Virus record (IMG/VR): IMGVR_UViG_3300025141_000637
Coordinates: 1 to 26,160 of that record
Origin: a virus
Length of the DNA: 26,160 nucleotides
Direction: 5' to 3' (one strand)
The notes under the pieces were generated by a model. That model was not told the origin of the DNA. It ran no database searches and was given only the letters and a program-made list of their open reading frames with translations. Both the position numbers and the translations under genes were made by a program. This document shows, in pieces, positions 795 to 19,437 of the stretch. How positions within the stretch are numbered: the first letter of the stretch is position 1; the number at the start of each line of letters is the position of its first letter.

Positions 795-803
795 TTAAGT
801 AGT
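795..803 (-). promoter_or_regulatory. Putative late promoter motif, variant ACTACTTAA, upstream of the tube gene
   Basis: The coding strand reads ACTACTTAA here, one base from the recurrent ACTATTTAA seen before other genes. It ends 22 bases before the tube start codon, inside the 42-base gap after the sheath gene. A separate promoter would suit a tube subunit needed in many copies. Confidence 0.35.
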
Positions 804-815
804 TGTAATCTATGT

Positions 816-3752
816 TTAGTCATCAAAAGATGCTCCAGTTGATGCAATCACAAAGTCAATCGCAATGTATTCGATAGCACGAGCAGGCTTAACCATGATC
901 TTCGCGTATAGAATGTTCTGATCAATCAAATCAGGAGTTGTGGTAGATTCGTCCAAAATCAATCGGTAATCGGAGATACCGTAATCAATCTTAGTGTTAG
1001 CCAAGAGCGGCTCAATGAGACCCTTAAAGCGGTTCCAAGTGGACTGCACATTCTGGTCGAATAGAACCTGAGTTGCCAAGAGGGAGATCTGCTTCTTAAG
1101 GAAGATAACCATGCGGCGAACGTTGATTCTATCAAGCGCAGACTGACGCTCCTGGAGGGTCTTCTGTCCGAACACAACGATTCCGCTTGACGGGAAGGAG
1201 GCAATCGGGTTAATGCTTGCCTCGTATAGAGTGTCGCGGTCCTTGGAGGTTAGCCTCTCGGTCACGTTGGAAATCGGGATACCGGCTGCACCATCACTCA
1301 AGCCGCCGCGGTTGAAGCCAGCGGGAGCGAACCAGAGCTTAGAAGATGCCTGGGAGCTAGCGAGAACGCCCATCATCGCAACAGTGGGCGGAATCCACAC
1401 AAGCTGACCAGTGCCTTCGTCGCGGGTCTGGACCCAGGGGTAGAAGGTGGCACCGTAAGAGGAATCAACCTGACGGTTCCGAAGCGCGGTGGCGGCGGAA
1501 GTCGGAGTGGTACCGATACGGGAGGAAGCAGCAGCGAAGTACTGCTCACTGGACGGAATGTAAACATTCGGCAAGTCGATAAGTGCGAGTGCATCGCCGC
1601 GCTCCTCACACACATTGACTGCGTGAGTAGTGAGGGAATCCACAGTGAGGCCCGGAACAGCCAAGAGGTTCATGTCAAGGTACTCGGGGTCAGCCAAGGT
1701 ATCAATCGCCTGCTTAATGGTATTGTAAGCGTAGGAGTTGTCCTCAGAAGTGCTGCTAATGTCGGTCATGCCCTTGTTGTAGAAGGGATCCGGCACTGTG
1801 ATGTCAACACCATCAAAGCCGCCCCAGAAGGGTGCTGTGAAGCGATCGTAGCCTGCATCCAGGAGAGTGACGTAAGTGTTTGTGCTGCGTGCGGTGCTAC
1901 TGTTGCCTGCGCGGCGTGAGCCGGAAGCGTAGGTGTAGACACTGTCGCCAGAAGCACTGACGTTATCCATGGTAAAGACGTATGAGTAGCCTTCGAGCGC
2001 AGATGTGGACACGTTGTAGCTTGCTGCTGTTGTGTCGGCCGGAACACCAGAAGTGGTGCCCAAACCGGCGTACCAAAGACGCTCGGGATCCGCAACACTG
2101 GCGTCGGGGCGAGTGCTAGCAGCAGTTCTGGTGACCTGGAATCCGAAGTAAGCGTTACGCGGGTCGGATAGACCACCATCGGTTGCTGCGCTGCGCAAAC
2201 GTACAGACGGGAAGTTCAAAGATGCTGTCACCGCGAAGTCCGCCAGGACCGGGGGATAGGATGAAGAAATCACCGCGTCGGCCAGGTTGGGGCGGCCGGG
2301 AAGATCCTGACCGAGGCGCACAAAGCGCTCGTCCAAATCTGATAGAGAGCCGGAAGCGGTGAATGCGCTAACATCACGAAGCTTCGGAGGACCGAAGTAA
2401 CCGAACGGTAGAAGTGTCGGGTCAGTTGCACCGGCATCAGTATCGGCGTTCATCTCAACACGAACAAACTTAGAGAGGTTCGGGTAAGTCTCACGGGTAC
2501 GTAGACGGCGCTCGGAAGCATCCCACTCCTCATACTGAGTACCAATCTGGCGAGCGATGTAGTTCGGGGAAGTGGGGTCAAGTGAAAGGTTGTCGAACCG
2601 CTCAAGAATCACGACCTTGCTGTCTGTGTCTAGCAGTGAGCGCAAGACAAGAGAGAAGGAGCCGTAATCCGAAGTAGAGACGCTGGACTCTCTGATCTTC
2701 TCGATGGAGACCTTGACGTTCTTGTGGAGCCACTCGCCATGGCCGCGGCCAATCAAGCGGAAGAGCTTGGGTGCCGAGGCGACCTGGAAAGAAGCGGCAG
2801 AGCCGAGATCCTGACCGATAAACCAGCCAGCAACCGCATCCTGAGAAGGAGCACCCTTCATGTTGAAGGGTCCGACCGCATCGCTGGAGCCAGAAGAGAT
2901 ACCAGCGATCAAGCCAACAAGCTTACCGGTGGCGCCTCCGGTGCGACCTGCATCGCGGATCTCCTGCTCAAAGGTTTCACCCAACCAGTAGGCTTGATAG
3001 GAAGTGGAGGGGTAGAAGTCACCCTGACCGGAGCTTAGCTGCGGGTTAGTGTTGAAGCGCTTGCGAATGAACAAGTCGCTGCTGTCGTCGAAGTTGAAAG
3101 TTGTAGTGGTGTCACCAGCAGCGAGACCGCTGATTACCGCCTTGAAGTTGCCGTTTGCATCGCTCTCGACCAAGCAAGAAGATGCGGTAACAACCGCAGG
3201 AGCGGAGGAAGTACCAGCGAGACCGCCAGCCAAAGCCACGGAGCCGCTCTGGACATACCAGATAGCTGCCAATTCGCCGGCGTTACTTCCAGTAAAGTAG
3301 TTTCCTAGTCCGTTAGAGCTAGAGGGGAAGATCCAGAGACCGTAGGCGCCGCCATCGGAGCCCGTGGTCGGCTTACCGGTTGTCTTCCAGCCGGAAGAAG
3401 CTGCGCCACCGGCAGTAGAGCCAACGGAGGTCTCCTGCCCAAGCAAACGCACGTAAGTGATAGGTGCAACGTTGGAGGCCAAAAATGCCTTAGCTGCGTA
3501 AGTTCCGTACATCGGAGACTGGAAGTTTCCGTTACGGTAGATATCTCCACCGCCATTTCCGGGTACAGTGTCGCCAAACATGTTCAGGAAGTCTGAGTAG
3601 GACTCAACCTTAACAGGGCGCATTGCAGGGCCGCGGACTGAGCGACCGATAATTACCGGGCCAATGGCCTGGGGGGTTTTGGGAATGAAAGAGTTATCAA
3701 TTTCGTTGATAAACACTCCCGGAGATACAAACTTGAAGCTTTTTACTGACAT
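816..3752 (-). CDS. 18: Tail sheath protein, T4 gp18-like, enlarged
   Basis: This 978-residue protein is the contractile sheath subunit. The N-terminus has FVSPGVFINEIDNS (residues 8-21) followed by GPVIIGRSVRGPA, the standard opening of T4-type sheaths. The C-terminal domain (about 875-978) has RINVRRMVIFLKKQI, then NRFKGLIEPLL and a closing segment that anchors neighbouring subunits. T4 gp18 is 659 residues. The extra length lies in the Gly/Ser/Ala-rich central part (about 100-680), which by analogy forms protruding outer domains. The ATG at 3752 is preceded by AGAGGA and by a promoter-like motif about 50 bases upstream. Tail tube follows, neck genes precede. The family call is firm; surface exposure of the insertions is inferred. 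Confidence 0.93.
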   Translation of the reverse strand: MSVKSFKFVSPGVFINEIDNSFIPKTPQAIGPVIIGRSVRGPAMRPVKVESYSDFLNMFGDTVPGNGGGDIYRNGNFQSPMYGTYAAKAFLASNVAPITYVRLLGQETSVGSTAGGAASSGWKTTGKPTTGSDGGAYGLWIFPSSSNGLGNYFTGSNAGELAAIWYVQSGSVALAGGLAGTSSAPAVVTASSCLVESDANGNFKAVISGLAAGDTTTTFNFDDSSDLFIRKRFNTNPQLSSGQGDFYPSTSYQAYWLGETFEQEIRDAGRTGGATGKLVGLIAGISSGSSDAVGPFNMKGAPSQDAVAGWFIGQDLGSAASFQVASAPKLFRLIGRGHGEWLHKNVKVSIEKIRESSVSTSDYGSFSLVLRSLLDTDSKVVILERFDNLSLDPTSPNYIARQIGTQYEEWDASERRLRTRETYPNLSKFVRVEMNADTDAGATDPTLLPFGYFGPPKLRDVSAFTASGSLSDLDERFVRLGQDLPGRPNLADAVISSSYPPVLADFAVTASLNFPSVRLRSAATDGGLSDPRNAYFGFQVTRTAASTRPDASVADPERLWYAGLGTTSGVPADTTAASYNVSTSALEGYSYVFTMDNVSASGDSVYTYASGSRRAGNSSTARSTNTYVTLLDAGYDRFTAPFWGGFDGVDITVPDPFYNKGMTDISSTSEDNSYAYNTIKQAIDTLADPEYLDMNLLAVPGLTVDSLTTHAVNVCEERGDALALIDLPNVYIPSSEQYFAAASSRIGTTPTSAATALRNRQVDSSYGATFYPWVQTRDEGTGQLVWIPPTVAMMGVLASSQASSKLWFAPAGFNRGGLSDGAAGIPISNVTERLTSKDRDTLYEASINPIASFPSSGIVVFGQKTLQERQSALDRINVRRMVIFLKKQISLLATQVLFDQNVQSTWNRFKGLIEPLLANTKIDYGISDYRLILDESTTTPDLIDQNILYAKIMVKPARAIEYIAIDFVIASTGASFDD

Positions 3753-3801
3753 ATTGTGGTTCCTCTTATGAAAAGCAAGTACATTTGATGCCTAATCATA
3801 C

Positions 3802-3811
3802 TTTAAATAGT
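3802..3811 (-). promoter_or_regulatory. Putative late promoter motif ACTATTTAAA upstream of the sheath gene
   Basis: The coding strand reads ACTATTTAAA, an exact copy of the motif found in other leaders. It lies 50 bases before the sheath ATG in a 108-base noncoding gap, the natural place for a promoter of the sheath and tube unit. Confidence 0.5.
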
Positions 3812-3849
3812 ATTTTCAAACCCAAACGGACAGCCCAACTTCAATATTG

Positions 3850-3863
3850 TAGTTCCTGAACTA
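3850..3863. repeat. Perfect 6-bp inverted repeat at the end of the gp15-like gene
   Basis: TAGTTC-CT-GAACTA overlaps the stop codon of the 298-residue neck gene. It could form a small hairpin at the 3' end of that message, but no run of T follows on the coding strand, so it is not a convincing intrinsic terminator. Confidence 0.3.
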
Positions 3864-4757
3864 ATCTTTTCCCCATGTACCGTCTTTACCCCAAAGGTTA
3901 AAATTGCCGGCAGGTACTTCGGACTCCTGTGGGAATTGGTACTCGACTATATTTTCATCGACGCGCAGAATAGGACGATCATCATTGACGCCTTCGCTAA
4001 TAAGATAGCCCAACACATTAATGGTTATCTCGGTTGTGAAGTCTCGGGAATCCTCTCCAAGTGAGGCTATGTTGTTATTTTGGCTGAATCCTTGCTGAAT
4101 AAACATCTCGTATCGGTGGTTGTTTCGAGTAAGGATTGCGGAGTTGATCTGTCCGGTTCTTGTCATAAAAGGAGCAGACAGATCATTCATCTGCTGTTGG
4201 TATTCGGTCTTTATCAATACCTTATAATCCACGTTAATATATATGGGAATAGGAATAGAGAGAGACTGAATCACCACCTTCTTGTTGATTCTTGGGTAGT
4301 ATTTCTGGTCTACACCTCCTGAGTTGTTTCGGGTGCCAGATGCCACGGCAAATGCTCGTGTCTTGTCGGGCACTATTCTCTGGGCGATAACAACACGACC
4401 TGTTCTCCCGTTGTTCTTGTTAGAATAGATTTGTGCCTGGAATGAGCCCTTGCGTCCTGGATCCTTTGTTATAGATGTGCGCTCAATGGTGACCACCGGC
4501 AAAATGATCGACTTATTCTGATCTCGCAACTCTCGTGAATGCTTGACCTGATACGCGCGTTCGGGAGTCTGCCATAGAACGGGGACGGCTTTAAAACCTT
4601 CATTGCTCCACGTAGACAGTGAGAGGTCCTGCTTGATCCATTCGAACAGAGCAGCATCTATATCTTCAATACTCGAAGCCAGCATGCCTACTTCATTAAG
4701 AGCATAGCCGTTAGAGCCGCTTGGCAACAAGGCAAAGTCAAAGTTATCAGGTAGCAT
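3861..4757 (-). CDS. 15: Tail terminator / sheath stabiliser, probably T4 gp15-like
   Basis: From the start I prefer the protein is 298 residues (T4 gp15 is 272). Recognisable parts are WQTPERAYQVKHSRELRDQN and ILPVVTIERTSITKDP in the N-terminal half, then IPIPIYINVDYKVLIKTEYQQQMNDL and FTTEITINVLGYLISEG. This arrangement is, from memory, typical of the gp15-type protein that caps the tail and joins it to the neck. The order gp13, gp14, this gene, gp18, gp19 supports the assignment. An upstream TTG at 4814 would add 19 residues. I chose the ATG at 4757 because AGAGGA lies seven bases before it and the overlap with the gp14-like gene then shrinks to 11 bases. Confidence 0.68.
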   Translation of the reverse strand: MLPDNFDFALLPSGSNGYALNEVGMLASSIEDIDAALFEWIKQDLSLSTWSNEGFKAVPVLWQTPERAYQVKHSRELRDQNKSIILPVVTIERTSITKDPGRKGSFQAQIYSNKNNGRTGRVVIAQRIVPDKTRAFAVASGTRNNSGGVDQKYYPRINKKVVIQSLSIPIPIYINVDYKVLIKTEYQQQMNDLSAPFMTRTGQINSAILTRNNHRYEMFIQQGFSQNNNIASLGEDSRDFTTEITINVLGYLISEGVNDDRPILRVDENIVEYQFPQESEVPAGNFNLWGKDGTWGKD

Positions 4758-5235
4758 CAAATAGTCCTCTTCTGGCACGCTTGCACGTTGCTCTCGCTTC
4801 AAAAGTGTGATCAACTTGGCCGAAGAGCTTCCTTTCTTCTTCTATCTTCACAAGCTCGTAATAATTATTGCCGTACAAAACAAAGTCGCCTTCGCGCACA
4901 AACAAGTTCTGATCTTCTGTGAGGCGCCTTCGGTGGAATTTAACTGTGATCATACCCATCTCGTCGACGCCAACGCCGTCTAAGTAGGATGTTGCCTGCT
5001 CATTGAACTCCACCAGGGCGTACACGCGGATGGGCGGGAGGAATGTTTTTTCAACAGCCTCGCCATACATTTCATGGAAGTCGGTTCGTTCTAGATCAAT
5101 AGAGTAATACAAAATCTGCTGTCCGATGACTTTCTCAATAAGCTCATCGTTTACCTGTTTTACAAGGTTTCGCTCTTTCTCACCTAAAAAGAGGGGAGGA
5201 GGAGGCTGTGGTGGTCTCTTCCATTCGTCAGACAT
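4747..5235 (-). CDS. 14: Neck / head-closure protein, probably T4 gp14-like
   Basis: This 162-residue protein has LGEKERNLVKQVNDELIEKVIGQQILYYSIDLERT near its N-terminus (from about residue 17), then PPIRVYALVEFNE and FHRRRLTEDQNLFVREGDFVLYG. I recall this pattern in the neck proteins labelled gp14 in T4-like marine phages, although T4 gp14 is longer (256 residues). Gp14 and gp13 close the filled head and bind the tail. The position right after gp13 (7-base gap) and overlapping the gp15-like gene agrees. The upstream ribosome binding site is weak (GGGGTAAATAGAAG), so translation may be coupled to gp13. A head-closure role is secure mainly from gene order. Confidence 0.65.
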   Translation of the reverse strand: MSDEWKRPPQPPPPLFLGEKERNLVKQVNDELIEKVIGQQILYYSIDLERTDFHEMYGEAVEKTFLPPIRVYALVEFNEQATSYLDGVGVDEMGMITVKFHRRRLTEDQNLFVREGDFVLYGNNYYELVKIEEERKLFGQVDHTFEARATCKRARRGLFDAT

Positions 5236-5242
5236 CTTCTAT

Positions 5243-6520
5243 TTACCCCACAAAAATCGGCAACGGCGTCACCTTCAATACGTTCGTTGCTGCTTCCGCC
5301 ACTTCCTGGTCTTCCTTGGCGAGTGCGGAGTATTCGGTTTCCTTCAGTATCTCTCTTAGTTTATCTTTAAGAGTAGACTGCTCGTCTTTAGCTTGCGATA
5401 GAAGATCACTGTGATTCAAAGTAACACTCTCGCCTGGAATCGGAATGGTGGTAAACTTGCCACGAATCTGCCCCAACATCTCTTTGCTTAATGCTAAGGC
5501 ATACTTTCTAATCCACTGTTGGCCCATTGAGTTAATACTCTCAAAGGGAATATTATCGAACGGCAGCGTGTTCATGTTGTTGACACCTTCAATTCCAGTA
5601 TCAGTGGTTCCGTCCAATTCATACGGCTGTAGATCAACGTAAAATTTAACCCACATTCTGGAGTTGAACCCGTCTCCGAATCCATATTGGCTCGGGGTGG
5701 GGTAGAGGCGCAGCTTGTTGTTTATAATCTCAAAAGAATAAAGAGAGGTGCGTGTAAAGATAGAGTCCTCATAGGCCATGGCTTGCATTTTATTCTGCCA
5801 TGTAGGCACAACCTCGAAAGTAGAGTCGTCTGAGAACTGTCCATAAGTGCTCATGTTGCCTATGACGTTAAGTCCGCCGTAGTAGCCGTAGAATCTCCAC
5901 ATCGCGCGGGGTGTCTTGTAATACACCTTTGTAATAATTACTCTTTTATTGCCGACCTTGCCGGCATAACCCACAACATTGCCGCCATCATCAGTACCGC
6001 TGTCGGACGCTGCGGAGATGATGCTCTGCAAATCATAATCTTGCTGATCTTGGACCGTTTTAAATGAGGCTGAATACTGCGGTATAGTGCCGCCAAACCC
6101 GCCGGCTGCTGCGGCAGCATCGCCAACACGGCGGGAATACCCTAGCGAATAGCGCGGGTACTTAAGGTTTGAACCAGAAGGCCCGGCTGTCTGCTCGCCT
6201 AAATAGTTGAAAGAGCCGGTGGCTGAGCCGAGAACATTAGACAGTACGTTCTTGCCTTGGTGAAGGTTGAGTATGTACGAGTATTCTAGAACAGCTTCTT
6301 CGTAAGCGGCATATACATTTGAGGGTGTCAACTCAATATCTACAACATCGCCACCTAGTTTCTTATAAGTGTAAGCAACCTGGGCTGAGGCGCCGCTAAG
6401 AAATGTTACTGAACCCGTGTACACGCCAAATGGAAGCGCAGTGGCTACCAGATCCGCAGATCCGGTAGATGTCAAAATAACTGCGCTAACTGTAGATTGG
6501 GGGCTTAGATTTCTCGGCAT
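5243..6520 (-). CDS. 13: Neck protein, T4 gp13-like
   Basis: The C-terminal third is diagnostic in my reading: WIRKYALALSKEMLGQIRGKF, IPIPGESVTLNHSDLLSQA, then a charged helix (LKDKLREILKETEYSALA) and a final PLPIFVG. These match the gp13 neck protein of T4-like phages, which sits on the portal side of the neck. The N-terminal half is longer than in T4 (425 versus 309 residues) and Gly/Ala/Tyr-rich, with an MWRFYGYYGGLNV segment. An upstream ATG at 6538 exists. I chose 6520 (MPRNLSPQ) because AGGAG precedes it by nine bases and the promoter-like motif at 6541-6549 would leave 6538 too close to the transcript start. Gp14- and gp15-like genes follow. Confidence 0.8.
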   Translation of the reverse strand: MPRNLSPQSTVSAVILTSTGSADLVATALPFGVYTGSVTFLSGASAQVAYTYKKLGGDVVDIELTPSNVYAAYEEAVLEYSYILNLHQGKNVLSNVLGSATGSFNYLGEQTAGPSGSNLKYPRYSLGYSRRVGDAAAAAGGFGGTIPQYSASFKTVQDQQDYDLQSIISAASDSGTDDGGNVVGYAGKVGNKRVIITKVYYKTPRAMWRFYGYYGGLNVIGNMSTYGQFSDDSTFEVVPTWQNKMQAMAYEDSIFTRTSLYSFEIINNKLRLYPTPSQYGFGDGFNSRMWVKFYVDLQPYELDGTTDTGIEGVNNMNTLPFDNIPFESINSMGQQWIRKYALALSKEMLGQIRGKFTTIPIPGESVTLNHSDLLSQAKDEQSTLKDKLREILKETEYSALAKEDQEVAEAATNVLKVTPLPIFVG

Positions 6521-6540
6521 TAAGATTTTCTCCTGCATTC

Positions 6541-6549
6541 ATAAGTAGT
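6541..6549 (-). promoter_or_regulatory. Putative late promoter motif, variant ACTACTTAT, upstream of gp13
   Basis: The coding strand reads ACTACTTAT 21 bases before the chosen gp13 start. It would begin the neck unit gp13-gp14-gp15. The transcript leader would be very short. Confidence 0.35.
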
Positions 6550-6606
6550 AATGGAATAAACAAAACCCCGATGGATCAGAGCGCTCGTTGCAAAGATGTT
6601 TTTATT

Positions 6607-6972
6607 TTATGCTGTCGCCGATTTCGCTTCAGTTTTTGTAGACTTGCGGCGCCTTGAAGCGGCAGCCTTGCGCTTAGTAGCGGCTTTGGCCTTAGTCTTG
6701 GTCGTCGCCTTGGCTTTAGTTTTTGGGGCGGCCTTAGCTTTAGTCTTTGTGGTTTCTGGTGCCTTAGCAGTGATAACCGGTGTGGTTTCAGTAGCTGTAG
6801 CTTCCAGAATCGGTACCTCGGCTGTTTCAACAACCGTTGGTGTAATCGTCTCTGTCATTAAGATGGAAGGCTCGGTGTCTTCAACTGTTTGCGCGTTTAA
6901 CTTCATCCGTGGATGATTGTCGTGCTTTAGTGCAAACTTTTTACTGTGCAGTAGTCTGCGCTTTTTTCCCAT
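6607..6972 (-). CDS. Histone-H1-like Lys/Ala-rich basic protein
   Basis: The protein has 121 residues in three parts. A basic N-terminus, GKKRRLLHSKKFALKHDNHPRMKL (residues 2-25), resembles short conserved proteins of marine T4-like phages. A Thr/Glu-rich linker spans about 28-68. The tail (70-118) is dominated by Lys, Ala, Thr and Arg, with KTKAKA repeated three times at 8-residue spacing (76, 84, 92). The tail composition is like histone H1 and bacterial histone-like tails, so DNA or RNA binding is plausible, but no folded domain is visible. It is a single-gene unit with AGGAG before the ATG, a promoter-like motif upstream and a terminator before that. Packaging with DNA in the head is only a suggestion. 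Confidence 0.6.
   Translation of the reverse strand: MGKKRRLLHSKKFALKHDNHPRMKLNAQTVEDTEPSILMTETITPTVVETAEVPILEATATETTPVITAKAPETTKTKAKAAPKTKAKATTKTKAKAATKRKAAASRRRKSTKTEAKSATA
6682..6747 (-). repeat. Three 24-bp tandem repeats encoding KTKAKA octads
   Basis: Residues 76-81, 84-89 and 92-97 of the basic protein read KTKAKA, separated by two-residue spacers (AP, TT). The coding sequence therefore repeats with a 24-base period, a likely site of slippage or copy-number change. Confidence 0.7.
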
Positions 6973-6997
6973 GGGAACTCCTATTGTATGTCCGATA

Positions 6998-7006
6998 ATA
7001 AATAGT
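6998..7006 (-). promoter_or_regulatory. Putative late promoter motif ACTATTTAT upstream of the basic protein gene
   Basis: ACTATTTAT on the coding strand, 26 bases before the ATG at 6972, adjoins a perfect 14-base palindrome AATAGTTAACTATT (7002-7015). It lies between a terminator (7093-7122) and the gene, as expected for an independent promoter. Confidence 0.5.
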
Positions 7007-7092
7007 TAACTATTTGCTAAAACGAAAATCTCAAAAAATTGACGGCGAAATAATTCACCAGATCGAAGTTATTAAGCTTTGATCTCGCAAAC

Positions 7093-7122
7093 AAAAACCC
7101 CCCAACCCGAAAGGGAGGGGGG
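7093..7122 (-). terminator. Intrinsic terminator after the 151-aa gene
   Basis: The coding strand forms a GC stem (CCCCCC, T, CCC pairing with GGG, TT, GGGGGG) around a UUUC loop, followed directly by TTTTTG. It lies 34 bases after the stop of the 151-residue gene. Confidence 0.8.
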
Positions 7123-7155
7123 ATAAGATAATGTATAACAAAAACTTGTTAACTT

Positions 7156-7611
7156 CTAGCTAAATGCAATACCGTTGGCACCACCGGCAGCGGCGGTACC
7201 AGTTACATACCACAAAGTACCATCTGACAGAAGGGTAATTTGGTCGCCTGCTAGTGTAGCACTACCGAATGTAGCTGTGAGGTCGGAACTACCATCAGCC
7301 AAATTTTGTGATGCAGTACTAGGGCCAGCAACAGCGCCGGCCATGAAGTCTCCGGCTGCTGCGACAACAGTACAAACAACGGCAGCATAATCTTCCACTT
7401 GAATGATCGTAAAAGTCATCCCAGCAGTTGCAGCGGGCAATGTAATATCTACCCCGTTTTGTCCCATCAAAATAACTTTGCCACTGTCGGCGGCAACCAG
7501 TGTTGTATCCGAAGTTACTGATTTAGTGGTCGCCTTTCGGCGATATAGATCGTTTTGATTTTCGTTAATCAGGCTACGAATTCGTGCCCAACCTACTCTT
7601 TTAGTTCCCAT
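7156..7611 (-). CDS. Probable capsid-surface or fibre-tip protein after the capsid gene
   Basis: The 151-residue protein begins MGTKRVGWARIRSLINENQNDL, an opening I associate with uncharacterised proteins near gp23 in marine T4-like phages. The rest is small, beta-rich and Ala/Gly/Thr-rich. DITLPAATAGMTFTIIQ and ITLLSDGTLWYVTG match the layout of the C-terminal domain of the fibre proteins in this window (TLTLPAAPSVGD and a final aromatic strand). It is a single-gene unit with its own promoter-like motif (7675-7683), a good ribosome binding site (AGAAGGAG) and flanking terminators, which suggests high independent expression. A head decoration or head-fibre role is inferred; no enzymatic motif is present. 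Confidence 0.6.
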   Translation of the reverse strand: MGTKRVGWARIRSLINENQNDLYRRKATTKSVTSDTTLVAADSGKVILMGQNGVDITLPAATAGMTFTIIQVEDYAAVVCTVVAAAGDFMAGAVAGPSTASQNLADGSSDLTATFGSATLAGDQITLLSDGTLWYVTGTAAAGGANGIAFS

Positions 7612-7674
7612 AATATATTTCTCCTTCTATGAATATTAATTAGGTCAATTAACGAAAGGATTTCTCCCTCCGCT

Positions 7675-7683
7675 ATATATAGT
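7675..7683 (-). promoter_or_regulatory. Putative late promoter motif, variant ACTATATAT, upstream of the 151-aa gene
   Basis: The coding strand reads GGGACTATATATAGCGG just downstream of the capsid-gene terminator and 64 bases before the start codon. One base differs from ACTATTTAT. Confidence 0.4.
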
Positions 7684-7695
7684 CCCACACAAACG

Positions 7696-7727
7696 AAAGC
7701 CCCCTTCCGAATTCGGAAGGGGGCTTT
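7696..7727 (-). terminator. Intrinsic terminator after the major capsid gene (32-bp perfect palindrome)
   Basis: AAAGCCCCCTTCC-GAATTC-GGAAGGGGGCTTT is a perfect 32-base inverted repeat located 30 bases after the capsid stop codon. The stem ends in CUUU, so it would work as a terminator on the coding strand and possibly on either strand. Confidence 0.85.
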
Positions 7728-7756
7728 ACATTTTCTAGTACTTACTAGGCTATTAT

Positions 7757-9556: not shown

Positions 9557-9592
9557 TTTTAAATACCTCCTTAATTGTATATGTTTTGTATT

Positions 9593-9614
9593 GGTACCGT
9601 TATTAACGGATACC
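9593..9614 (-). repeat. Inverted repeat at the scaffold/capsid gene junction
   Basis: GGTACCGTTA-T-TAACGG(A)TACC is a near-perfect inverted repeat with a single bulged base. It spans the scaffold stop codon and lies about 36 bases before the capsid start. There is no T run, so it is not an obvious terminator. It might mark an RNA processing site separating scaffold and capsid messages. Confidence 0.4.
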
Positions 9615-10727: not shown

Positions 10728-10759
10728 ATAAGTGTCTCCTAGAAAGATAAATATTCAAA

Positions 10760-10768
10760 ATAAATAGT
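10760..10768 (-). promoter_or_regulatory. Putative late promoter motif ACTATTTAT upstream of the scaffold gene
   Basis: Exact ACTATTTAT on the coding strand, 33 bases before the scaffold ATG in the 65-base gap after the propeller gene. It probably drives scaffold and capsid together. Confidence 0.5.
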
Positions 10769-10792
10769 GTGTTGTAAATCAAAACACCCGTT

Positions 10793-11875: not shown

Positions 11876-11884
11876 TCTTGTTCC

Positions 11885-13855
11885 TTATGCCAATTCAATC
11901 CACTCCGAACTTGGATTGAAGTATATTACATTTGCCGTTGTTGTGCAATAGCCCACAATTCTTACAAAGTCGCCGGCTGCCGATGGGGCAGTGGTATTCA
12001 TGTTTGCGGCAGTTGTATCTACATATATCGCTTTACCAGCGGAAAAGTTAGATAAGTAAGTGTGCGCGTCGAAGTATCCTCGAAGAAGGATGCCGTCAAC
12101 CGCTGGGTTGGCACCAAGAGCAATACCAAGCATCTGATCTGCGCCTGTAGAGACAGCATCGGCATCTGCCTCGGTCCAGTTGCTGTCCGTGTGAAGATAA
12201 TAAAGCTTTCCAGCAGTCGTGCTACCACCGCCGAACAGAACTACTTCACCAGCACCAGTGTCGTTATTTAACCCTGTTGGGTTTTGATAGCTTGTTATGG
12301 CGACACCGCTGGAAGCGGAGGCTATAAGCGAACCACTGATAATCGCATCACCATCGACATCCAACTCAGCGTTTGCTGTTGTTCCTTCTTTGGCAATACC
12401 AACTCTTTGAGTCGCACCAAAGAGCCTCAAGGTGTTCTGACTGTTTGTTTTTAGAATGATGTCTTTAGTACTAGCGTTAGACATGACCAACACTTCATTG
12501 GCACTTAGCTGTATCTCTGCCTGATCAGCGCCAGCAACTTCGAAGACAATCTCTTTTGTTCCTGTATTGCTCTTTGCAATTCTTATGACTTCATTGCCAG
12601 TAGCGCCAGAGAGATGCAAGTAAGAAGAGCTTACAGTATTTGTAGCTACCACGGTGCCGGGGACATTTAAGGTCGGGTTGTTCCAGGTAAGCCCTGAAAA
12701 GGTATCTATGGTATTTGTTGAGGCGCCACAAAGGACTACGCGATTTGCGGTGTAATTGTTAATCGGGGCAGTTGTCAGGGTGTCGCCGCGACCATGGAAA
12801 GCGGTACCAGAAACATCTGATGAGGCGGAGATGACGCCTCCAACTGTTAGATTTCTTCCAACAGTGAGATCTCTATCTGCAATAATATCATTGGACGCAC
12901 TGACGTCACCGATAATCTGAAGGCTATTGGTGGCTGCCTGGAAATCAAAAGTGAGGTTTGAACTTCCGCTAAAGTTTGAGCCGCTCCTAAACTGAACGTT
13001 TTGGTTAGTGCCTCCTGGGCTGGCGCCAGGAATATTGTATAGGCCGGAGCCGTTACCAACGAACTGACTGGAAGAGACATGCCCAGAAGCACTGAGATTA
13101 AGCGTTGTTACTGTCCCGGAGCCATCATATGTAAAGTTGGAGTTCCCCGTGAAGTTGCCTCCAGACCTATACTGAACTTGACTATCGGAACCACCAGGGG
13201 AAGTGAAGGTCAATGTATTCTGCATGTAGGTGCCCAACACAGCCATGGTGGAATTCTTTAGCGCATTGCCGGAATCGGAGTCAGAAATCAAAAACTGATC
13301 GCCATTACTTAAGCCAGCTTTAGCGGTCGCGTCATTCGGTGTTACTCTCAGGGCGGTCCCTGCTAGCCCTAAGCCACCTGTAGTAGCTGTATTGACGTTG
13401 ATACCATTTGAATCGACGCTAATGCCATTTGCGGCCTTTGCTGACAGCTTGCTGGACTGGTTTTCAAGTCCATTTCCGAAATATATATTTGATGCGGATA
13501 GCTGACCGCTAACCTTTGAGGTCTCCAGCGGGATCCCCTGAAGGGCGGCGGCGGAGCCAGAGAAGATAGACGCTGTAAGCGCACTCCCATCGAAAGTAAG
13601 TTGAGTATAACATGTTGCGGTACCATCTCCATCGGATACTACAACCCTGCCGGCTCCATCGCCTGCGATTGTGCTAATCGCGCTTGAGGTCAGGAGGGCG
13701 CCAGTGGCTGTGTTGTAAAATGCACTAGCCGAAACTGTACTGGCGAAAGTTTTATTTCCGCGGATTGTCTGGTTGCTATAGTCGTCAACCATGCTCTCGA
13801 TTGAGCCACTATCGTTGCAGAAATTAACGGTTCCGCATAAAGTATTATAAGCCAT
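11885..13855 (-). CDS. Fibre protein, 656 residues
   Basis: The sequence is Ser/Gly/Asn/Thr-rich with repeated beta-strand elements such as LTFDGSALTASIFSGSAAALQGI, FVGNGSGLYNIPGASPGG and two QVQYRSGGNFTGNSNFTYDG-like copies, the pattern of trimeric phage fibres. The C-terminal domain (about 540-656) has GKLYYLHTDSNW, LGIALGANPAVDGILLRGYF and a final VIYFNPSSEWIELA. I recall this domain in fibre-like proteins of marine phages. The start MAYNTLCGTVNF resembles the starts of two other fibre genes here (MGYNAMSG, MAYKFQLG), suggesting a shared attachment point. AAGGA precedes the ATG. Whether it belongs to head or tail is not decided by sequence; its place among head genes hints at the head. Confidence 0.7.
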   Translation of the reverse strand: MAYNTLCGTVNFCNDSGSIESMVDDYSNQTIRGNKTFASTVSASAFYNTATGALLTSSAISTIAGDGAGRVVVSDGDGTATCYTQLTFDGSALTASIFSGSAAALQGIPLETSKVSGQLSASNIYFGNGLENQSSKLSAKAANGISVDSNGINVNTATTGGLGLAGTALRVTPNDATAKAGLSNGDQFLISDSDSGNALKNSTMAVLGTYMQNTLTFTSPGGSDSQVQYRSGGNFTGNSNFTYDGSGTVTTLNLSASGHVSSSQFVGNGSGLYNIPGASPGGTNQNVQFRSGSNFSGSSNLTFDFQAATNSLQIIGDVSASNDIIADRDLTVGRNLTVGGVISASSDVSGTAFHGRGDTLTTAPINNYTANRVVLCGASTNTIDTFSGLTWNNPTLNVPGTVVATNTVSSSYLHLSGATGNEVIRIAKSNTGTKEIVFEVAGADQAEIQLSANEVLVMSNASTKDIILKTNSQNTLRLFGATQRVGIAKEGTTANAELDVDGDAIISGSLIASASSGVAITSYQNPTGLNNDTGAGEVVLFGGGSTTAGKLYYLHTDSNWTEADADAVSTGADQMLGIALGANPAVDGILLRGYFDAHTYLSNFSAGKAIYVDTTAANMNTTAPSAAGDFVRIVGYCTTTANVIYFNPSSEWIELA

Positions 13856-13873
13856 GCATATTGTTCCTTGTCT

Positions 13874-13881
13874 ATAAGTAG
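13874..13881 (-). promoter_or_regulatory. Weak candidate late promoter motif (CTACTTAT)
   Basis: CTACTTATAG on the coding strand, 19 bases before the 656-residue fibre gene, resembles the recurrent motif but lacks its first A. The gene may instead be read from the motif before the Smr gene. Confidence 0.2.
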
Positions 13882-13888
13882 GTAAAGT

Positions 13889-14101
13889 TTATTTGTTTAC
13901 GACCACAAAGGCACCAAAATTTGTGTAATTTTCTGGATAGTATCTGAAGTTGTGCCTTTCTAATATCTGGAAAACAAGTTCTTTCATTCTCGCAGAATCT
14001 CCAGTGATAATCTTTAACGGTGTATCATTAAGTAGGACAAAGTTTTCTACGTGCCTTTCTACTGCCGAGTGGTACATGCCATGCAAATCTAATGTCGCCA
14101 T
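13889..14101 (-). CDS. Small stand-alone Smr-domain-like protein
   Basis: The protein has 70 residues: LDLHG at 4-8, then a helix (AVERHVENFVLL), IITGDSARMKELVFQIL and a closing strand GAFVVVN. This is the order of the Smr domain (DLHG, then a TGxG-like loop), a fold with nuclease or nucleic-acid-binding activity in MutS2 and related proteins. The second loop reads ITGDSARM rather than TGxGxHS, and the domain is shorter than usual (80-90), so activity is uncertain. The longer reading from 14146 was rejected: its start lies inside the terminator, whereas ATG 14101 has AGAGG five bases upstream. The gene stands between fibre genes with its own motif and an upstream terminator, like a cargo gene. 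Confidence 0.65.
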   Translation of the reverse strand: MATLDLHGMYHSAVERHVENFVLLNDTPLKIITGDSARMKELVFQILERHNFRYYPENYTNFGAFVVVNK

Positions 14102-14114
14102 TGAAACCTCTTTT

Positions 14115-14123
14115 ATAAATAGT
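14115..14123 (-). promoter_or_regulatory. Putative late promoter motif ACTATTTAT upstream of the Smr-like gene
   Basis: Exact ACTATTTAT on the coding strand ends 14 bases before the chosen ATG and lies directly after the terminator at 14126-14160. The back-to-back terminator and motif make this one of the best supported copies. Confidence 0.55.
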
Positions 14124-14125
14124 AC

Positions 14126-14160
14126 AAAAAAAAGGACGCTCCCCATAAAGAGGAGCGCCC
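14126..14160 (-). terminator. Intrinsic terminator after the repeat fibre gene
   Basis: On the coding strand GGGCGCTCC pairs with GGAGCGTCC (9 pairs with one G-U wobble) around a 9-base loop, followed by eight T. The wobble pairs only in minus-strand RNA, which fixes the direction. Confidence 0.9.
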
Positions 14161-14201
14161 AAATATAGAATGATTAACCCGAAGGGTAATCGACGTCTAA
14201 A

Positions 14202-16523
14202 CTACCAGACCTTCCAGAGGTTAGCAGCAACGTACATCAAGGAGACCGCACCGTAGTTGGATTCGAGAGAGATAGAAGCCTCACCATCAATGCTGTGGGC
14301 GCCAGCGCCGCGAGCAATGATAAGATCGAAACCACCCAAAGAGGCGGGGGCCTTAACGTGGATAACGTCACCAACAGACGGAGCCGCCGGAAGAGTCAGA
14401 GTACGATCTGCGGTCAAAGACGCAGAACCGTAGTTCATACCCTCAGCAAGAGTAGCGTTGGCGTCAGCGAAGGTCGCGACGTCGTTACTCTGGACAGAGA
14501 GGACACCGTTAGTAGCAGTTAGACCACCACCAGCCATGGCTGTGACGAGGTCCGCAATGGACTCCTTCTTGGTGGAACCATCGGTGGCATCGATAAAGGC
14601 GAAGCTGTCGGCGGAGACTGCAATAGCAGCAGCAGACAACTCAGAAAGATCGAGAGCCAAGACACCGCTTGCAGCGGAGAGGCCGTCACCAGCGAGGCCG
14701 GTAGCGACATCATCGTTGACCATGCCATCGTGGATTGCATCAGCAGAGATGGTCAAGAGACCATCAGCGCCTAGAGTAGCGTCACCAGACATGGAGCGGT
14801 AGATCAAGTCGTCGCCATCGGAGACCGGGAACTGCGCAGCAGAACCAAGTGCGAGGGCAGACGGGTCACCGGAAGCGTCACCAATGATGAAGGAACCACG
14901 AGTGATGCCTGCCATCTTAGCGAGAGTCACACCATTGTCCTTCAAACGAAGGCTATCAGAGTTGATCTCGATGCCAGTACCATCGACGTTGACGGCGAGG
15001 GTAGCGATAGAATCCACGCCACCACCGTAGGAAAGACCGTTGCCGGCGAAGGAGCCAGAGAGACCAACCTTGTCAGAAGTGATTCTGACAGCGCCGGTGA
15101 CTTCGACAGCCAAGACACCGCTTGCAGCGGAAAGACCGAGGCCTGCGAGACCAGTAGCAACGTCATCGTTGACCATGCCATCGTGAACCGCATCGGCGGA
15201 GATGGTCAAGAGACCATCGGCGCCCAAGGTGGCGTCACCGGACATGCTACGGTAGATCAAATCATCACCGTCAGAGACCGGGAACTGTGCGGAAGAGCCG
15301 AGTGCAAGAGCAGACGGGTTGCCGGACGCGTCACCAATGATGAACTTACCGCGGGCAAGTCCAGCCATCTTGGCAAGAGTAACACCGTTATCCTTCAAGC
15401 GAAGAGTGTCAGCGTTAGTCTCGATACCACTGTCATCGACGTTAACAGCCAAGACGCCGCTTGCAGCGGAGAGGCCGTCACCAGCAAGACCGGTAGCGAC
15501 ATCATCGTTGACCATGCCATCGTGAACTGCATCAGCAGAAATGGTAAGGACGCCTGCGGCCAATGTAGCGTCACCGCTCATTGAAACGTATGCGAGGTCT
15601 GTACCATCAGACTGCAAGAACTGGTGGGCAGAGCCAACAGCAAGAGCCTGCGGGTCGCCGGACGCATCGCCGGAGATAATGGAACCACGAGTGATACCAG
15701 CCATCTTAGCGAGAGTCACGCCGTTGTCCTTCAAGCGAAGGGTATCGGAGTTGATCTCGATGCCAGAGCCGTCGACGTTGACAGCGAGAGTGGAGATAGA
15801 ATCCACGCCGCCACCATAGGAAAGACCGTTGCCAGCGAAAGAACCGGAGATACCGACCTTGTCAGAGGAAACCTTGACAGCGCCAGAAGCTTCAATAGCC
15901 AAGACACCAGAAGCGGCAGAGAGGCCGACACCAGCAAGGCCAACTGCAACGTCGTCGTTCAACATGGTGTCGTGGACTGCGTCAGCAGAAATGGTCAAGA
16001 GGCCGTCAGCGCCTAGAGTAGCGTCACCGGACATGGTACGGTAAACCGGATCATCACCATCAGAGATCATGAACTGAGTAGAGGTACCGAGAGCGTGGTA
16101 GGACGGGTTGCCAGAAGCATCACCGACGATGAGAGAACCACGAGTGACACCAGCCATCTTGGCAAGAGTGACACCGTTATCCTTCAAGCGAAGTGTATCA
16201 GCGTTAAGCTCAACACCAGAATCGTCGACGTTGACAGTGTAGACACCGCTAGCGGCGGAGAGACCGGGGCCAGCAGCAGCAGTCGCGTAATCAGCGAGAG
16301 TGTCGGACTTGACCTGACCGTCTGCGTCCTTAAAGTAGAATGAGTCTGCGCCGACTGCAACAGCAGTGTCAGCAACACCGTCGAACTTGACGGCGCCGGC
16401 TGTGGTTAGATCACCAGCAGCCTTAATGTAGCCGGAACCAGAGAAATCAGTTGTAGTGATTCCCTCTTCCTGCTGTAGAGAACCGCTCATCACAGCAGCC
16501 CCTAATTGAAATTTATAAGCCAT
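14202..16523 (-). CDS. Repeat-containing fibre protein, 773 residues
   Basis: Residues about 87-620 are built of repeats, each holding LRLKDNGVTLAKMAG, RGxxIxGDASGxP, MSGDATL and TISADAVHDGMVNDDVATGLAG. LRLKDNGVTLAKMAG occurs at 111, 262, 374 and 525, a spacing of 151, 112 and 151. The longer spacing holds an extra 39-residue block (KVGxSGSFAGNGLSYGGGVDS), so the array reads A-B-A, A-B-A with a 263-residue super-period. The C-terminal domain (about 690-773) has LTADRTLTLPAAPSVGD, SIDGEASISLESNYGAVSLMY and ends LWKVW, related to the ends of the next two fibre genes upstream. A long repetitive shaft with a folded tip is the natural reading. GGAGG precedes the ATG, and a terminator follows. Confidence 0.75.
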   Translation of the reverse strand: MAYKFQLGAAVMSGSLQQEEGITTTDFSGSGYIKAAGDLTTAGAVKFDGVADTAVAVGADSFYFKDADGQVKSDTLADYATAAAGPGLSAASGVYTVNVDDSGVELNADTLRLKDNGVTLAKMAGVTRGSLIVGDASGNPSYHALGTSTQFMISDGDDPVYRTMSGDATLGADGLLTISADAVHDTMLNDDVAVGLAGVGLSAASGVLAIEASGAVKVSSDKVGISGSFAGNGLSYGGGVDSISTLAVNVDGSGIEINSDTLRLKDNGVTLAKMAGITRGSIISGDASGDPQALAVGSAHQFLQSDGTDLAYVSMSGDATLAAGVLTISADAVHDGMVNDDVATGLAGDGLSAASGVLAVNVDDSGIETNADTLRLKDNGVTLAKMAGLARGKFIIGDASGNPSALALGSSAQFPVSDGDDLIYRSMSGDATLGADGLLTISADAVHDGMVNDDVATGLAGLGLSAASGVLAVEVTGAVRITSDKVGLSGSFAGNGLSYGGGVDSIATLAVNVDGTGIEINSDSLRLKDNGVTLAKMAGITRGSFIIGDASGDPSALALGSAAQFPVSDGDDLIYRSMSGDATLGADGLLTISADAIHDGMVNDDVATGLAGDGLSAASGVLALDLSELSAAAIAVSADSFAFIDATDGSTKKESIADLVTAMAGGGLTATNGVLSVQSNDVATFADANATLAEGMNYGSASLTADRTLTLPAAPSVGDVIHVKAPASLGGFDLIIARGAGAHSIDGEASISLESNYGAVSLMYVAANLWKVW
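14664..16265 (-). repeat. Duplicated 263-codon (789-bp) internal repeat of the fibre gene
   Basis: Four copies of a roughly 112-residue unit are arranged with two copies of a 39-residue insert (A-B-A-A-B-A). Copies are almost identical in protein but differ at many third codon positions, for example between 14700-14870 and 15160-15330, so the duplication is not recent or has been held by protein-level selection. Confidence 0.8.
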
Positions 16524-16556
16524 TTATAAAACCCTCCATAGTAATAGTTTTTTTAG

Positions 16557-16590
16557 GCAACGAAGCGAGAGATAAATCCCACTTCGTCGC
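16557..16590 (-). promoter_or_regulatory. Stem-loop at the likely 5' end of the repeat fibre message
   Basis: GCGACGAAG and CTTCGTTGC (9 pairs with one G-U) flank a 16-base loop, immediately downstream of the motif at 16593-16601. If transcription starts a few bases after the motif, the stem forms at the very 5' end of the mRNA, where it could protect the transcript. Confidence 0.4.
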
Positions 16591-16592
16591 TC

Positions 16593-16601
16593 TTAAATAG
16601 T
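16593..16601 (-). promoter_or_regulatory. Putative late promoter motif ACTATTTAA upstream of the repeat fibre gene
   Basis: Exact ACTATTTAA on the coding strand in the 98-base gap after the 333-residue fibre gene, 70 bases before the ATG at 16523. Confidence 0.5.
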
Positions 16602-16621
16602 CTTCTGGAGGGCCTTAATTT

Positions 16622-17623
16622 TTAGTAGATGAAGTATCTATTGGCGCCGTTACAATAAAGATGAATTGATGCGTATGGTGACTCCAAAACTACTGAATTT
16701 TGCCCATCAATCGTTTGACCGATGGCTGCATTGATCGTGATGTTCCGGGCATTTGCGCTGCCTCCCTCATCTTTAACGACCACCGTCTGACCGTCTCGCA
16801 TCAGTGCTGCATTTGGCAGACCCAGCGCTATTACCCCTGACGCATTTACAGTGTCGACTCCAACGTAATAATCGGTAGTCGAAATACTGTAGTCCTCGAC
16901 TACGCTTACGCGCTTCATTTGGAGGCCTCCGTTAATCGCCAAGACAGAAGAGCTAAACATCAAATCAACAGAGCCAGTAATGTCTCCGTCTATATCATGA
17001 AATTGCAGAGCCGCTATTGGGCCCTCTGCTACGACGTGATCGGCTTTAACATTTATAAGATTGCCGCCATCTCCGTAGAATGCAGAAGCAGACATATTCA
17101 AACTAGAACTTATAGTCTTGTTGAATGTAATAATATCTTGCACCTCATTAGAGGCGATGGTGGCGCCATTTGTGCCAATATGAATGGAGCCAGTGCCAAC
17201 AAACAATTCTTTCCATCTATTGCTAGCTGAGCCCAGAGAAAATGCGTTACTGCCCGATGGAGCAATTGAGCCAGTAATCGTCAGGCCGCGGCTAGCGGAT
17301 ATGTTAACTGTTCCAGTAAAGAACGAATCTCCAGCATATAAGGTGTTTGCAGTGACCCCAACTGAAGCCGTTATGTCTCCATTAACAGTTAACAGAGAAC
17401 CATCAAAAGTAAGATTCGGTTCCCCAACCATACTGTTGGCGTTGGCGCCCACTGTGAGGAGGTTGTCCGCCGAAGCATTGGCGACTATCCGAGGTATTTC
17501 TGTGACCGAAGCTCCGTTTCCGTAGAGGAGGCTTCCTGATAGGGTTGCGGCTGTGACCGCTGAGACGTTGCGCAATTCAACAGAACTTGCACGGATGGCC
17601 CCGGACATAGCGTTATAACCCAT
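16622..17623 (-). CDS. Fibre protein, 333 residues
   Basis: The beta-rich sequence contains short repeated elements typical of phage fibres (LTFDGSLLTVNGDITAS, FSLGSASNRWKELFVGTGSIHIG, ISSSLNMSASAFYGDGGNLINV). The C-terminal 100 residues, ending IGQTIDGQNSVVLESPYASIHLYCNGANRYFIY, match the end of the 216-residue protein encoded just upstream and, more distantly, the 773-residue fibre downstream. MGYNAMSGAIRA at the start resembles other fibre starts here. The segment SNRWKELFVG recalls the region before chaperone-type fibre tips, but no intramolecular chaperone is evident. AAGGAG lies 11 bases before the ATG and the gene follows its neighbour after 26 bases. Fibre assignment is good; location on the virion is unknown. 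Confidence 0.7.
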   Translation of the reverse strand: MGYNAMSGAIRASSVELRNVSAVTAATLSGSLLYGNGASVTEIPRIVANASADNLLTVGANANSMVGEPNLTFDGSLLTVNGDITASVGVTANTLYAGDSFFTGTVNISASRGLTITGSIAPSGSNAFSLGSASNRWKELFVGTGSIHIGTNGATIASNEVQDIITFNKTISSSLNMSASAFYGDGGNLINVKADHVVAEGPIAALQFHDIDGDITGSVDLMFSSSVLAINGGLQMKRVSVVEDYSISTTDYYVGVDTVNASGVIALGLPNAALMRDGQTVVVKDEGGSANARNITINAAIGQTIDGQNSVVLESPYASIHLYCNGANRYFIY

Positions 17624-17649
17624 GGTCGCTGCCCTCTCCTTAGTCTATA

Positions 17650-18300
17650 TTAGTATACGAACCAATTAGCTCCATTACTATATAGACTGATTGCCGGATA
17701 GCTTCCAGAAAGTACGTAGAAATTGCTGCCATCGATAGTATTGGGCGATGATGATGAGACAATAACCTGTCCGGCTCGGCTCGCTACTTCATCTTTAATC
17801 ACTATAACAGCGCCCGATTGGGCCGAGGTTGCTGCGTGAACTCGCAGTTCCACGTTCCCCACCTTCTGGATCCCAATAATATAGTCAGCATTGGATGAAG
17901 TAAACAGAGATGCAGTAACCGGGGTATATTTACCGGCGAAGCCTCGTACTGTAACGCGCTCAGTTGTTGTTGAGACATTTAATATTGGTGTCGACGAGGA
18001 CAGCGCAACTGTCATACTACCGGTGCGAATGTGAACATCGCCATTGCTGTTACCGAAGTAAGTGGAGCCAGACGTTTCGGTGACGTTAGAGATGTGATAC
18101 TCGCTAGCGTACAGAGCGCCATCAATGCGGACTGTTCCAGTAATAGCGAGAGTGCTGGGATCATATCCGCCTACTGAAGCGGTATAATACATAAAGTCAG
18201 TAGAACCAGTGGAGTTGGTTTCTGTTGATATGAACTGAACTGAGCCAGAGGGGCCACCAACGTTGGTGGCATTAATATATGCCCAAGCGTACTTCGCCAT
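17650..18300 (-). CDS. Short fibre-like protein, 216 residues
   Basis: The N-terminal half is beta-rich and Ser/Thr/Gly-rich (VQFISTETNSTGSTDFMYYTASVGG, TGTVRIDGALYASEYHISNVTETSGSTYFGNSNGDVHIRTGS). The C-terminal domain (about 120-216) carries SGAVIVIKDEVASRAGQVIV and closes TIDGSNFYVLSGSYPAISLYSNGANWFVY, the clearest version of the tip shared with the 333- and 773-residue fibres. It starts 4 bases after the stop of the 138-residue gene, with AGGGG inside the end of that gene serving as ribosome binding site, so the two are likely coupled. Possibly a short fibre or tip that co-assembles with its longer relatives. Confidence 0.65.
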   Translation of the reverse strand: MAKYAWAYINATNVGGPSGSVQFISTETNSTGSTDFMYYTASVGGYDPSTLAITGTVRIDGALYASEYHISNVTETSGSTYFGNSNGDVHIRTGSMTVALSSSTPILNVSTTTERVTVRGFAGKYTPVTASLFTSSNADYIIGIQKVGNVELRVHAATSAQSGAVIVIKDEVASRAGQVIVSSSSPNTIDGSNFYVLSGSYPAISLYSNGANWFVY

Positions 18301-18304
18301 GAGT

Positions 18305-18721
18305 TTATACCCCTACAGCAACAGGGCCAGAACCAGAGAAGTTTAAGCCTAAACTACCAGATGTGCGTTGCCTAGGAATAGTGGTAAGGCCAGCTACCAC
18401 ATCGCAGGTCCCGGCAGAGCCACCATATAACCATAAATTGGTAAGTTTTGTTTCATATACTGTAGATTTTCCGTAGCCGTTTGATCCGCTCGCATCTACC
18501 GTAAAATAGTAGCCGGCACTGGTCACGCCGGCGGCCGAATATCCAACACGAAGCGGGACAGTGGATTTGTTAATAACTTGAAACCATCGGGTTACATAGG
18601 GAAACTCCACTACGCGAGCAGTTGTATCATAATCAACACTGGCGCTTGCAAACGGCCTTCCGCTTACCTGAAACGCTGGTACATTGTTAATTCCTACTTC
18701 TGCTTTCCATGACATTGCCAT
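18305..18721 (-). CDS. Small beta-rich virion-type protein, unassigned
   Basis: The 138-residue protein has VTRWFQVINKSTVPLRVGYSAAGVTSAGYYFTVDASG in the middle, then KLTNLWLYGGSAGTCDVVAGLTTIP and a Gly/Ser-rich end (LNFSGSGPVAVGV). I remember similar unassigned proteins with a PLRVGFS motif next to fibre genes in marine phages, but no tested function. The composition suggests a beta-sandwich structural protein, perhaps a base for the fibres encoded next. AAAGGA precedes the ATG and a promoter-like motif lies 36 bases upstream, so it probably opens the 138-216-333 fibre unit. Confidence 0.55.
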   Translation of the reverse strand: MAMSWKAEVGINNVPAFQVSGRPFASASVDYDTTARVVEFPYVTRWFQVINKSTVPLRVGYSAAGVTSAGYYFTVDASGSNGYGKSTVYETKLTNLWLYGGSAGTCDVVAGLTTIPRQRTSGSLGLNFSGSGPVAVGV

Positions 18722-18756
18722 AATATTTTTTCCTTTGTTTTAACCTTGTCGTAACT

Positions 18757-18765
18757 ATAAATAGT
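18757..18765 (-). promoter_or_regulatory. Putative late promoter motif ACTATTTAT at the start of the fibre cassette
   Basis: Coding strand AACTATTTATAGTT is nearly self-complementary and abuts the stop codon of the bS21 gene. It ends 36 bases before the ATG of the 138-residue gene. Confidence 0.5.
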
Positions 18766-19011: not shown

Positions 19012-19437
19012 TTATTTCATTGCCTGCCAAACTTTAGAAGCACTGTTGAACAATGAGGATATGTCCACTCCTGGATCGCCAGCATCCCCTAGATCGGGTG
19101 CTCCCGCAGCAGGAGAAGTAGTGCCGCCGCGGGTTGGCTGGACATTTTCAAATATATCCACGCCGTTATAGGCGTCTTTCCCGACAGCATCCATCATCTT
19201 CTTTCGGTGCTCTTGTAGTTTATTGTTGGTTTCTTTGACGTGGCGTTTACGATGTTCGCCCTCATTAAATAGTACATCGTCATTGTTTTTCTGCGTTGCC
19301 TCGACTACAAGATTACCTTGCATGCCCTTGGCCACTTCCGCCACAACATTGCTTAAAAGCCCTTCTTCTAAAAGGACTTCATGAATACACTCTTTTACAA
19401 GCGGCTTGATAAGCTGTTTTAGTTCTGCTTTTTTCAT
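19012..19437 (-). CDS. Conserved phage protein of unknown function after the protease
   Basis: The 141-residue protein starts MKKAELKQLIKPLVKECIHEVLLEEGLLSNVVAEVAKG, an amphipathic helical segment. A charged helix follows (HRKRHVKETNNKLQEHRKKMMDAV), then a Pro/Gly/Ala-rich, probably disordered stretch (TRGGTTSPAAGAPDLGDAGDPG) and a short C-terminal helix (SSLFNSASKVWQAMK). It overlaps the protease stop by 4 bases (ATGA), so the two are translated in tandem. From position it might be a prohead core component comparable to T4 gp67 or gp68, but no sequence evidence shows this. Confidence 0.55.
   Translation of the reverse strand: MKKAELKQLIKPLVKECIHEVLLEEGLLSNVVAEVAKGMQGNLVVEATQKNNDDVLFNEGEHRKRHVKETNNKLQEHRKKMMDAVGKDAYNGVDIFENVQPTRGGTTSPAAGAPDLGDAGDPGVDISSLFNSASKVWQAMK

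Follow-up and report, generated by a model that had tools for sequence, protein, structure and literature searches.

A candidate divergent T4-type late promoter box and a putative gp55-family sigma factor in marine phages

Which promoter switches on the virion genes of a phage whose coding strand repeats one octamer in front of many of them? The stretch of DNA analysed here (the window) is a complete virus record of 26,160 bases whose main genes are all on the minus strand, and it contains a T4-type structural module with terminase, portal, capsid, sheath and tube genes. The original prediction had described the octamer ACTATTTA as a possible non-canonical T4-type late promoter box. Its six exact leader copies (sheath, basic protein, scaffold, Smr, repeat fibre and 138-aa genes) were all found at the listed sites, as were its variants before the tube, gp13-like and 151-aa genes and the location of two copies (14116 and 7676) straight after terminators. 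The list of exact copies was incomplete, as three intragenic ones had been missed. The boxes and copies of the window are as follows.

796..803, minus strand: variant box ACTACTTA, 5' of the tail tube gene (start 773)
3804..3811, minus strand: ACTATTTA box, 5' of the tail sheath gene (start 3752); kept in 6/6 sheath leaders compared
6200..6207, minus strand: exact copy of ACTATTTA within the gp13-like gene
6542..6549, minus strand: variant box ACTACTTA, 5' of the gp13-like gene (likely start 6520, after CAGGAGAAA)
6999..7006, minus strand: ACTATTTA box, 5' of the basic protein gene (start 6972); kept in 4/4 orthologous leaders
7676..7683, minus strand: weaker variant ACTATATA, 5' of the 151-aa gene (start 7611), after the terminator 7727-7696
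10761..10768, minus strand: ACTATTTA box, 5' of the scaffold gene (start 10727)
13875..13882, minus strand: variant box CCTACTTA, 5' of the 656-aa gene (start 13855)
14116..14123, minus strand: ACTATTTA box, 5' of the Smr-like gene (likely start 14101), directly after the terminator 14160-14134
16594..16601, minus strand: ACTATTTA box, 5' of the repeat fibre gene (start 16523)
18758..18765, minus strand: ACTATTTA box, 5' of the 138-aa gene (start 18721), with a one-base overlap with the end of the S21-like gene
19266..19273, minus strand: exact copy of ACTATTTA within the 141-aa gene
20283..20290, minus strand: exact copy of ACTATTTA within the 113-aa gene; the protease-like gene follows after about 230 nt

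The start codons of the Smr-like gene (14101, not 14146) and of the gp13-like gene (6520) were corrected for this list. Altogether the coding strand has nine copies of ACTATTTA and the other strand none; in shuffled windows the mean was 0.68 copies and the highest count 3. Six of the nine copies (all except 6200, 19266 and 20283) lie in leaders, which is very improbable by chance (P(>=6 of 9) = 4.8e-7) because only 4.3% of the window is non-coding with the curated starts. A de novo EM motif search recovered ACTATTTA in 10 of 11 window leaders. The variant ACTATATA showed no intergenic enrichment in relatives (2/11 copies). No box was found in gene leaders of the packaging-to-protease part of the window; the intragenic copy at 20283..20290 is a possible internal promoter ahead of the protease-like gene, and that at 19266..19273 might serve the 81-aa S21-like gene in the same way. 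The latter gene (PHROG_21469; 18765-19010, minus strand) encodes an S21-like ribosomal protein within the head module and has the same place in Microcystis phage Mel-JY01. The sequence at 7696-7727 is a 14-bp inverted repeat, T-rich on either side, and represents a candidate bidirectional terminator.

A TerL search gave about 600 related contigs, and 80 of these were retrieved; the main motif set combined the window with five long relatives (656 kb in all). These contigs are metagenomic and their genes were called by our own simple procedure. In this set ACTATTTA was the most intergenic-enriched 8-mer, with 50 of 92 copies between genes against a background of 5.2%, and the next-ranked 8-mers were the box itself in shifted register. 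The 80-nt stretches upstream of starts contained 46 copies, compared with a mean of 1.2 for composition-matched 8-mers, so that the motif passed the genome-wide check proposed with it. In two held-out genomes, ACTATTTA ranked first in a 203-kb relative (G007; 13/28 intergenic), and CTATTTAT ranked first in G011, where ACTATTTA reached 7/21. The identical pipeline applied to T4, as a positive control, ranked the T4 late box TATAAATA first. In the main motif set TATAAATA showed no coding-strand enrichment; as had been stated, it is missing from the coding strand of the window, and two of its three copies on the opposite strand are the reverse complement of a box plus its next bases.

Strand-biased octamers are known in genomes, and the motif might accordingly be a non-transcriptional mark, such as a Chi-like recombination or packaging octamer, or a product of chance. 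Its strand asymmetry is indeed partly trivial, because nearly all genes in the genomes of these relatives share one orientation and TAAATAGT, the reverse complement of the box, contains stops in two reading frames. Placement relative to genes is strong evidence for the box and strand bias by itself is weak evidence. Signals of the Chi or packaging type are spread through genes, whereas about half of the copies of the box are intergenic, just upstream of starts, and among orthologous leaders the box forms a conserved block. In the scaffold leaders of five diverged genomes, ACTATTTATTTTGA is kept amid changed flanks. A non-transcriptional mark is therefore extremely improbable.

The anatomy of the box was derived from 48 leader families. 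Its consensus is ACTA(T/C)TTA, and about a quarter of them have C rather than T as the fifth base; in the group of the window, AC before TA is invariant and C is allowed at -9. The distance from box to start codon has a median of 26 nt and ranges from 4 to about 100 nt. Neither TTGACA nor any other -35 element was detected upstream of the box (<0.35 bit per position in the 48 families), where the signals, relative to box start, are a weak G at -19 and a weak T at -15. A fixed TTTTG-N11-box element seen by eye was discarded, as it was left in about 3 of 48 after leader-family weighting. Downstream, purines peak at offsets 13 and 14 from box start (79% and 85%, 27 leader families), compared with about 41-55% at most other positions; this count was restricted to leaders with at least 26 nt to the start codon and thereby excludes the Shine-Dalgarno sequence. 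With the box taken as -13 to -6, as in T4, the peak falls on the expected +1. In the Smr leader only about 9 nt separate the predicted +1 from the ATG. We also considered outward-facing T4 promoters, TATTTATA being the reverse complement of TATAAATA, and rejected them: the conserved block in the group of the window is ACTATTTA, and both genes and purine peak are found downstream only.

Two types of leader were distinguished in the marine group. In the relative G001, the genes after the box encode sheath, scaffold, fibres, PhoH, endolysin and unnamed large proteins; many box-bearing genes have no PHROG name, and no replication gene was found among the named ones. Genes for primase, DnaB helicase, nucleases and GroEL, as well as small genes at 97-113 kb, follow TTGACA-N16-18-TATAAT. 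The host sigma70 promoter TTGACA-N17-TATAAT was absent at the box and present before other genes of G001. In the oriented G001 sequence, the 97-113 kb region is a cluster of small early-type genes, mostly with TTGACA-N17-TATAAT and often with TGcTATATT -10 elements.

A motif that is strand-specific and close to start codons might also act in RNA or translation, as a processing site, an enhancer or a regulator binding site, rather than as a promoter. Against this stand the variable distance to the start codon, the two window copies right behind terminators, the purine peak in a T4-like register and the finding that TTGACA/TATAAT promoters mostly occupy other leaders (44 leaders with the box, 72 with a sigma70-type promoter and 11 with both). 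We regard an action in RNA or translation as very improbable.

If the box is a promoter, it should have a sigma factor. The relatives encode a protein of about 235 aa (232-256 aa), which was found in 9/9 further long relatives examined and is a remote homologue of the T4 late sigma gp55. It matched PHROG_234 ('late sigma') with E 1.3e-5 to 0.02 per protein and 3e-7 to 2e-4 per genome, and hhalign against T4-type gp55s gave 93.5% and E 2e-7 over the whole sigma-2 domain; with its profile (A1), a single T4 gp55 was not significant and only broader alignments were. The Pfam match to Sigma70_r2 was weak and sub-threshold, and a PDB sequence search with the sigma profile gave no match. The AlphaFold model is all-helical, and its Foldseek matches, although weak (best E 0.015), were almost all sigma factors. 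Beyond gp55 the protein has a strongly conserved C-terminal helical, HTH-like region, which is common to the proteins of Flavobacterium phage immuto, Mel-JY01 and LR756508. The sigma gene is absent from the 26-kb window, and the link runs via the relatives (TerL 84-91%). These comparisons suggest that the protein belongs to the wider gp55 family and is a hitherto unannotated candidate late sigma. Together with the genome-wide enrichment, its presence in relatives supports the original proposal of a non-canonical T4-type late promoter with a gp55-type sigma.

Some relatives also encode a stand-alone sigma-4 protein of about 86 aa whose HTH is preceded by conserved cysteines (L243:5995-6255; L216:6001-6258; G001:119896-120015, minus strand). 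A split sigma might consequently be considered, in which the gp55-like sigma-2 and the sigma-4 protein read the box plus a -35 element. The sigma-4 protein is a true sigma region 4 (RpoD region 4, E 2e-5), in G001, G002, G003 and G005 a box directly follows its gene, and the weak G and T upstream of the box would suit such a reading. The split sigma is weakened by the lack of this protein in three of seven long relatives: it occurs in 4/7, the box and the sigma-2 protein in 7/7. Moreover, it had no match in phage isolates (50,697 phage records), and the upstream signal is below the 0.35 bit given above. We consider a split sigma unlikely, and the gp55-family sigma alone remains our preferred reader of the box.

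The same gp55-like protein was found in immuto, Mel-JY01 and LR756508. In immuto, which is cultured in Flavobacterium sp. LMO8, it is gp118, annotated as 'hypothetical' (NC_055915.1 78174-78872; L124:28174-28869; E 4e-19), and the immuto and Mel-JY01 sigmas share 28% identity with that of the marine group. The box of immuto late leaders is [AC]TATTTAT[AT], and offsets 13-14 are occupied by A; of 136 copies of CTATTTAT in 56 marine relatives of this phage, 109 were intergenic, and the top motif of Mel-JY01 was ATATTTAT. Both share the TATTTA core with the box described here. LR756508, an uncultured phage of 484 kb, encodes a relative of the sigma, but its 95-195 kb region, the 100 kb examined, showed no TATTTA box. 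Our literature search found no published description of the box for the marine group, immuto or Mel-JY01. About 20 early-type leaders of immuto (L123-L125, e.g. 67632, 69891, 72191) share a long box GTTGCC..TTCNTATATTTAGGTATCAATAATTAAAAC, which we take to resemble the Bacteroidetes TTG / TANNTTTG promoter.

These data bear on the possibility that a host sigma, perhaps an alternative one, reads the box as an ordinary host-type promoter. AT-rich -10 elements occur in many bacteria, and for the marine group a scan of genome contigs gave two MAG contigs only, which allowed no host inference. The box, however, tracks the phage sigma and not the host, because Flavobacterium and Microcystis phages with the same sigma family have the TATTTAT core in common. 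Early-type boxes, in contrast, differ and follow the host: GTTGCC..TATATTTAGGTATC before small genes in immuto and TTGACA/TATAAT in the marine group, the TTGACA of which is missing upstream of the box. Reading by a host sigma thus appears improbable.

The late promoter of T4, TATAAATA, is served by the sigma gp55, gp33 and the clamp gp45. The box shares with it a length of eight bases at about -13 to -6, the lack of a -35 element, a short AT-rich leader, a gp55-family sigma and virion genes downstream, and it is likewise a -10-like element just upstream of transcription units. TA is kept at -11/-10 and -7/-6, whereas -13/-12 and -9/-8 are changed, so that ACTA(T/C)TTA matches T4 at 4/8 positions. 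T4 gp55 flips bases -12, -9 and -8 (PMC7892883). In Aeromonas phage Aeh1 the late promoter has CTAAATA from -12, with a/g C at -13/-12 (PMC2988020, PMC1524935). AC at -13/-12 is therefore common to Aeh1 and the box (6/8 positions match), and the sole change is at -9/-8, from AA to (T/C)T. The prediction of a box different from that of T4 consequently holds for -9/-8, the only new positions; otherwise the box is less foreign than had been claimed, although ACTA(T/C)TTA conforms neither to the strict T4 consensus nor to the Aeh1-type a/gCTAAATA. Pocket residues of T4 gp55 were rejected as the cause of the base change: H95 is replaced by F here but also in cyanophage S-RIM8, and T99 varies.

Further differences from T4 are that the genes here all lie on one strand and that the sigma is about 50 aa longer owing to its C-terminal helical, HTH-like region. 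With 232-256 aa and this C-terminus, the protein falls outside a strict definition of gp55 (about 180 aa, C-terminal clamp-binding motif). The gp45 model PF02916 had no match in relatives; this does not allow a clamp to be called absent, because the model overlooks even the gp45 annotated in S-SSM5. A tblastn search with the clamp-region genes of Mel-JY01, which could miss remote homologues, gave no match in relatives or immuto. In some relatives the stand-alone sigma-4 protein could take the place of gp33.

Taken together, ACTA(T/C)TTA is in our estimate, with a probability of roughly 0.86 drawn from comparative sequence data, a divergent T4-type late promoter box read by a phage gp55-family sigma. 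Host sigma70 holoenzyme would transcribe the early genes first, from TTGACA-N17-TATAAT promoters. The phage sigma, with region 2 and the C-terminal helical, HTH-like region, would then join host RNA polymerase and read the -10-like box (about -13 to -6) without a -35 element; RNA would start about six bases past the box at a purine, and head, tail, fibre and lysis genes would be switched on. We infer the binding of sigma to the box, the start site and the late timing from where the motif lies and how it is conserved, from the sigma gene that the relatives encode and from the similar motif of other phages that have this sigma. More tentatively, a large uncultured marine clade and phages of Bacteroidota and Cyanobacteria might perhaps share a separate, unannotated late-sigma lineage (gp55-type region 2 plus C-terminal HTH-like region) with its own TATTTA box and without the gp45/gp33 replication coupling of T4.

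The box would provide the first readable expression programme for a large, abundant and mostly uncultured clade of marine phages, whose late units could be called from sequence. Immuto gp118 and hundreds of related proteins change from 'hypothetical protein' to candidate late sigma, and the range of gp55-type recognition would come to include -9/-8, which are among the three bases flipped by T4 gp55. As a cultured phage, immuto may help to find out whether gp55-type transcription depends on the sliding clamp.
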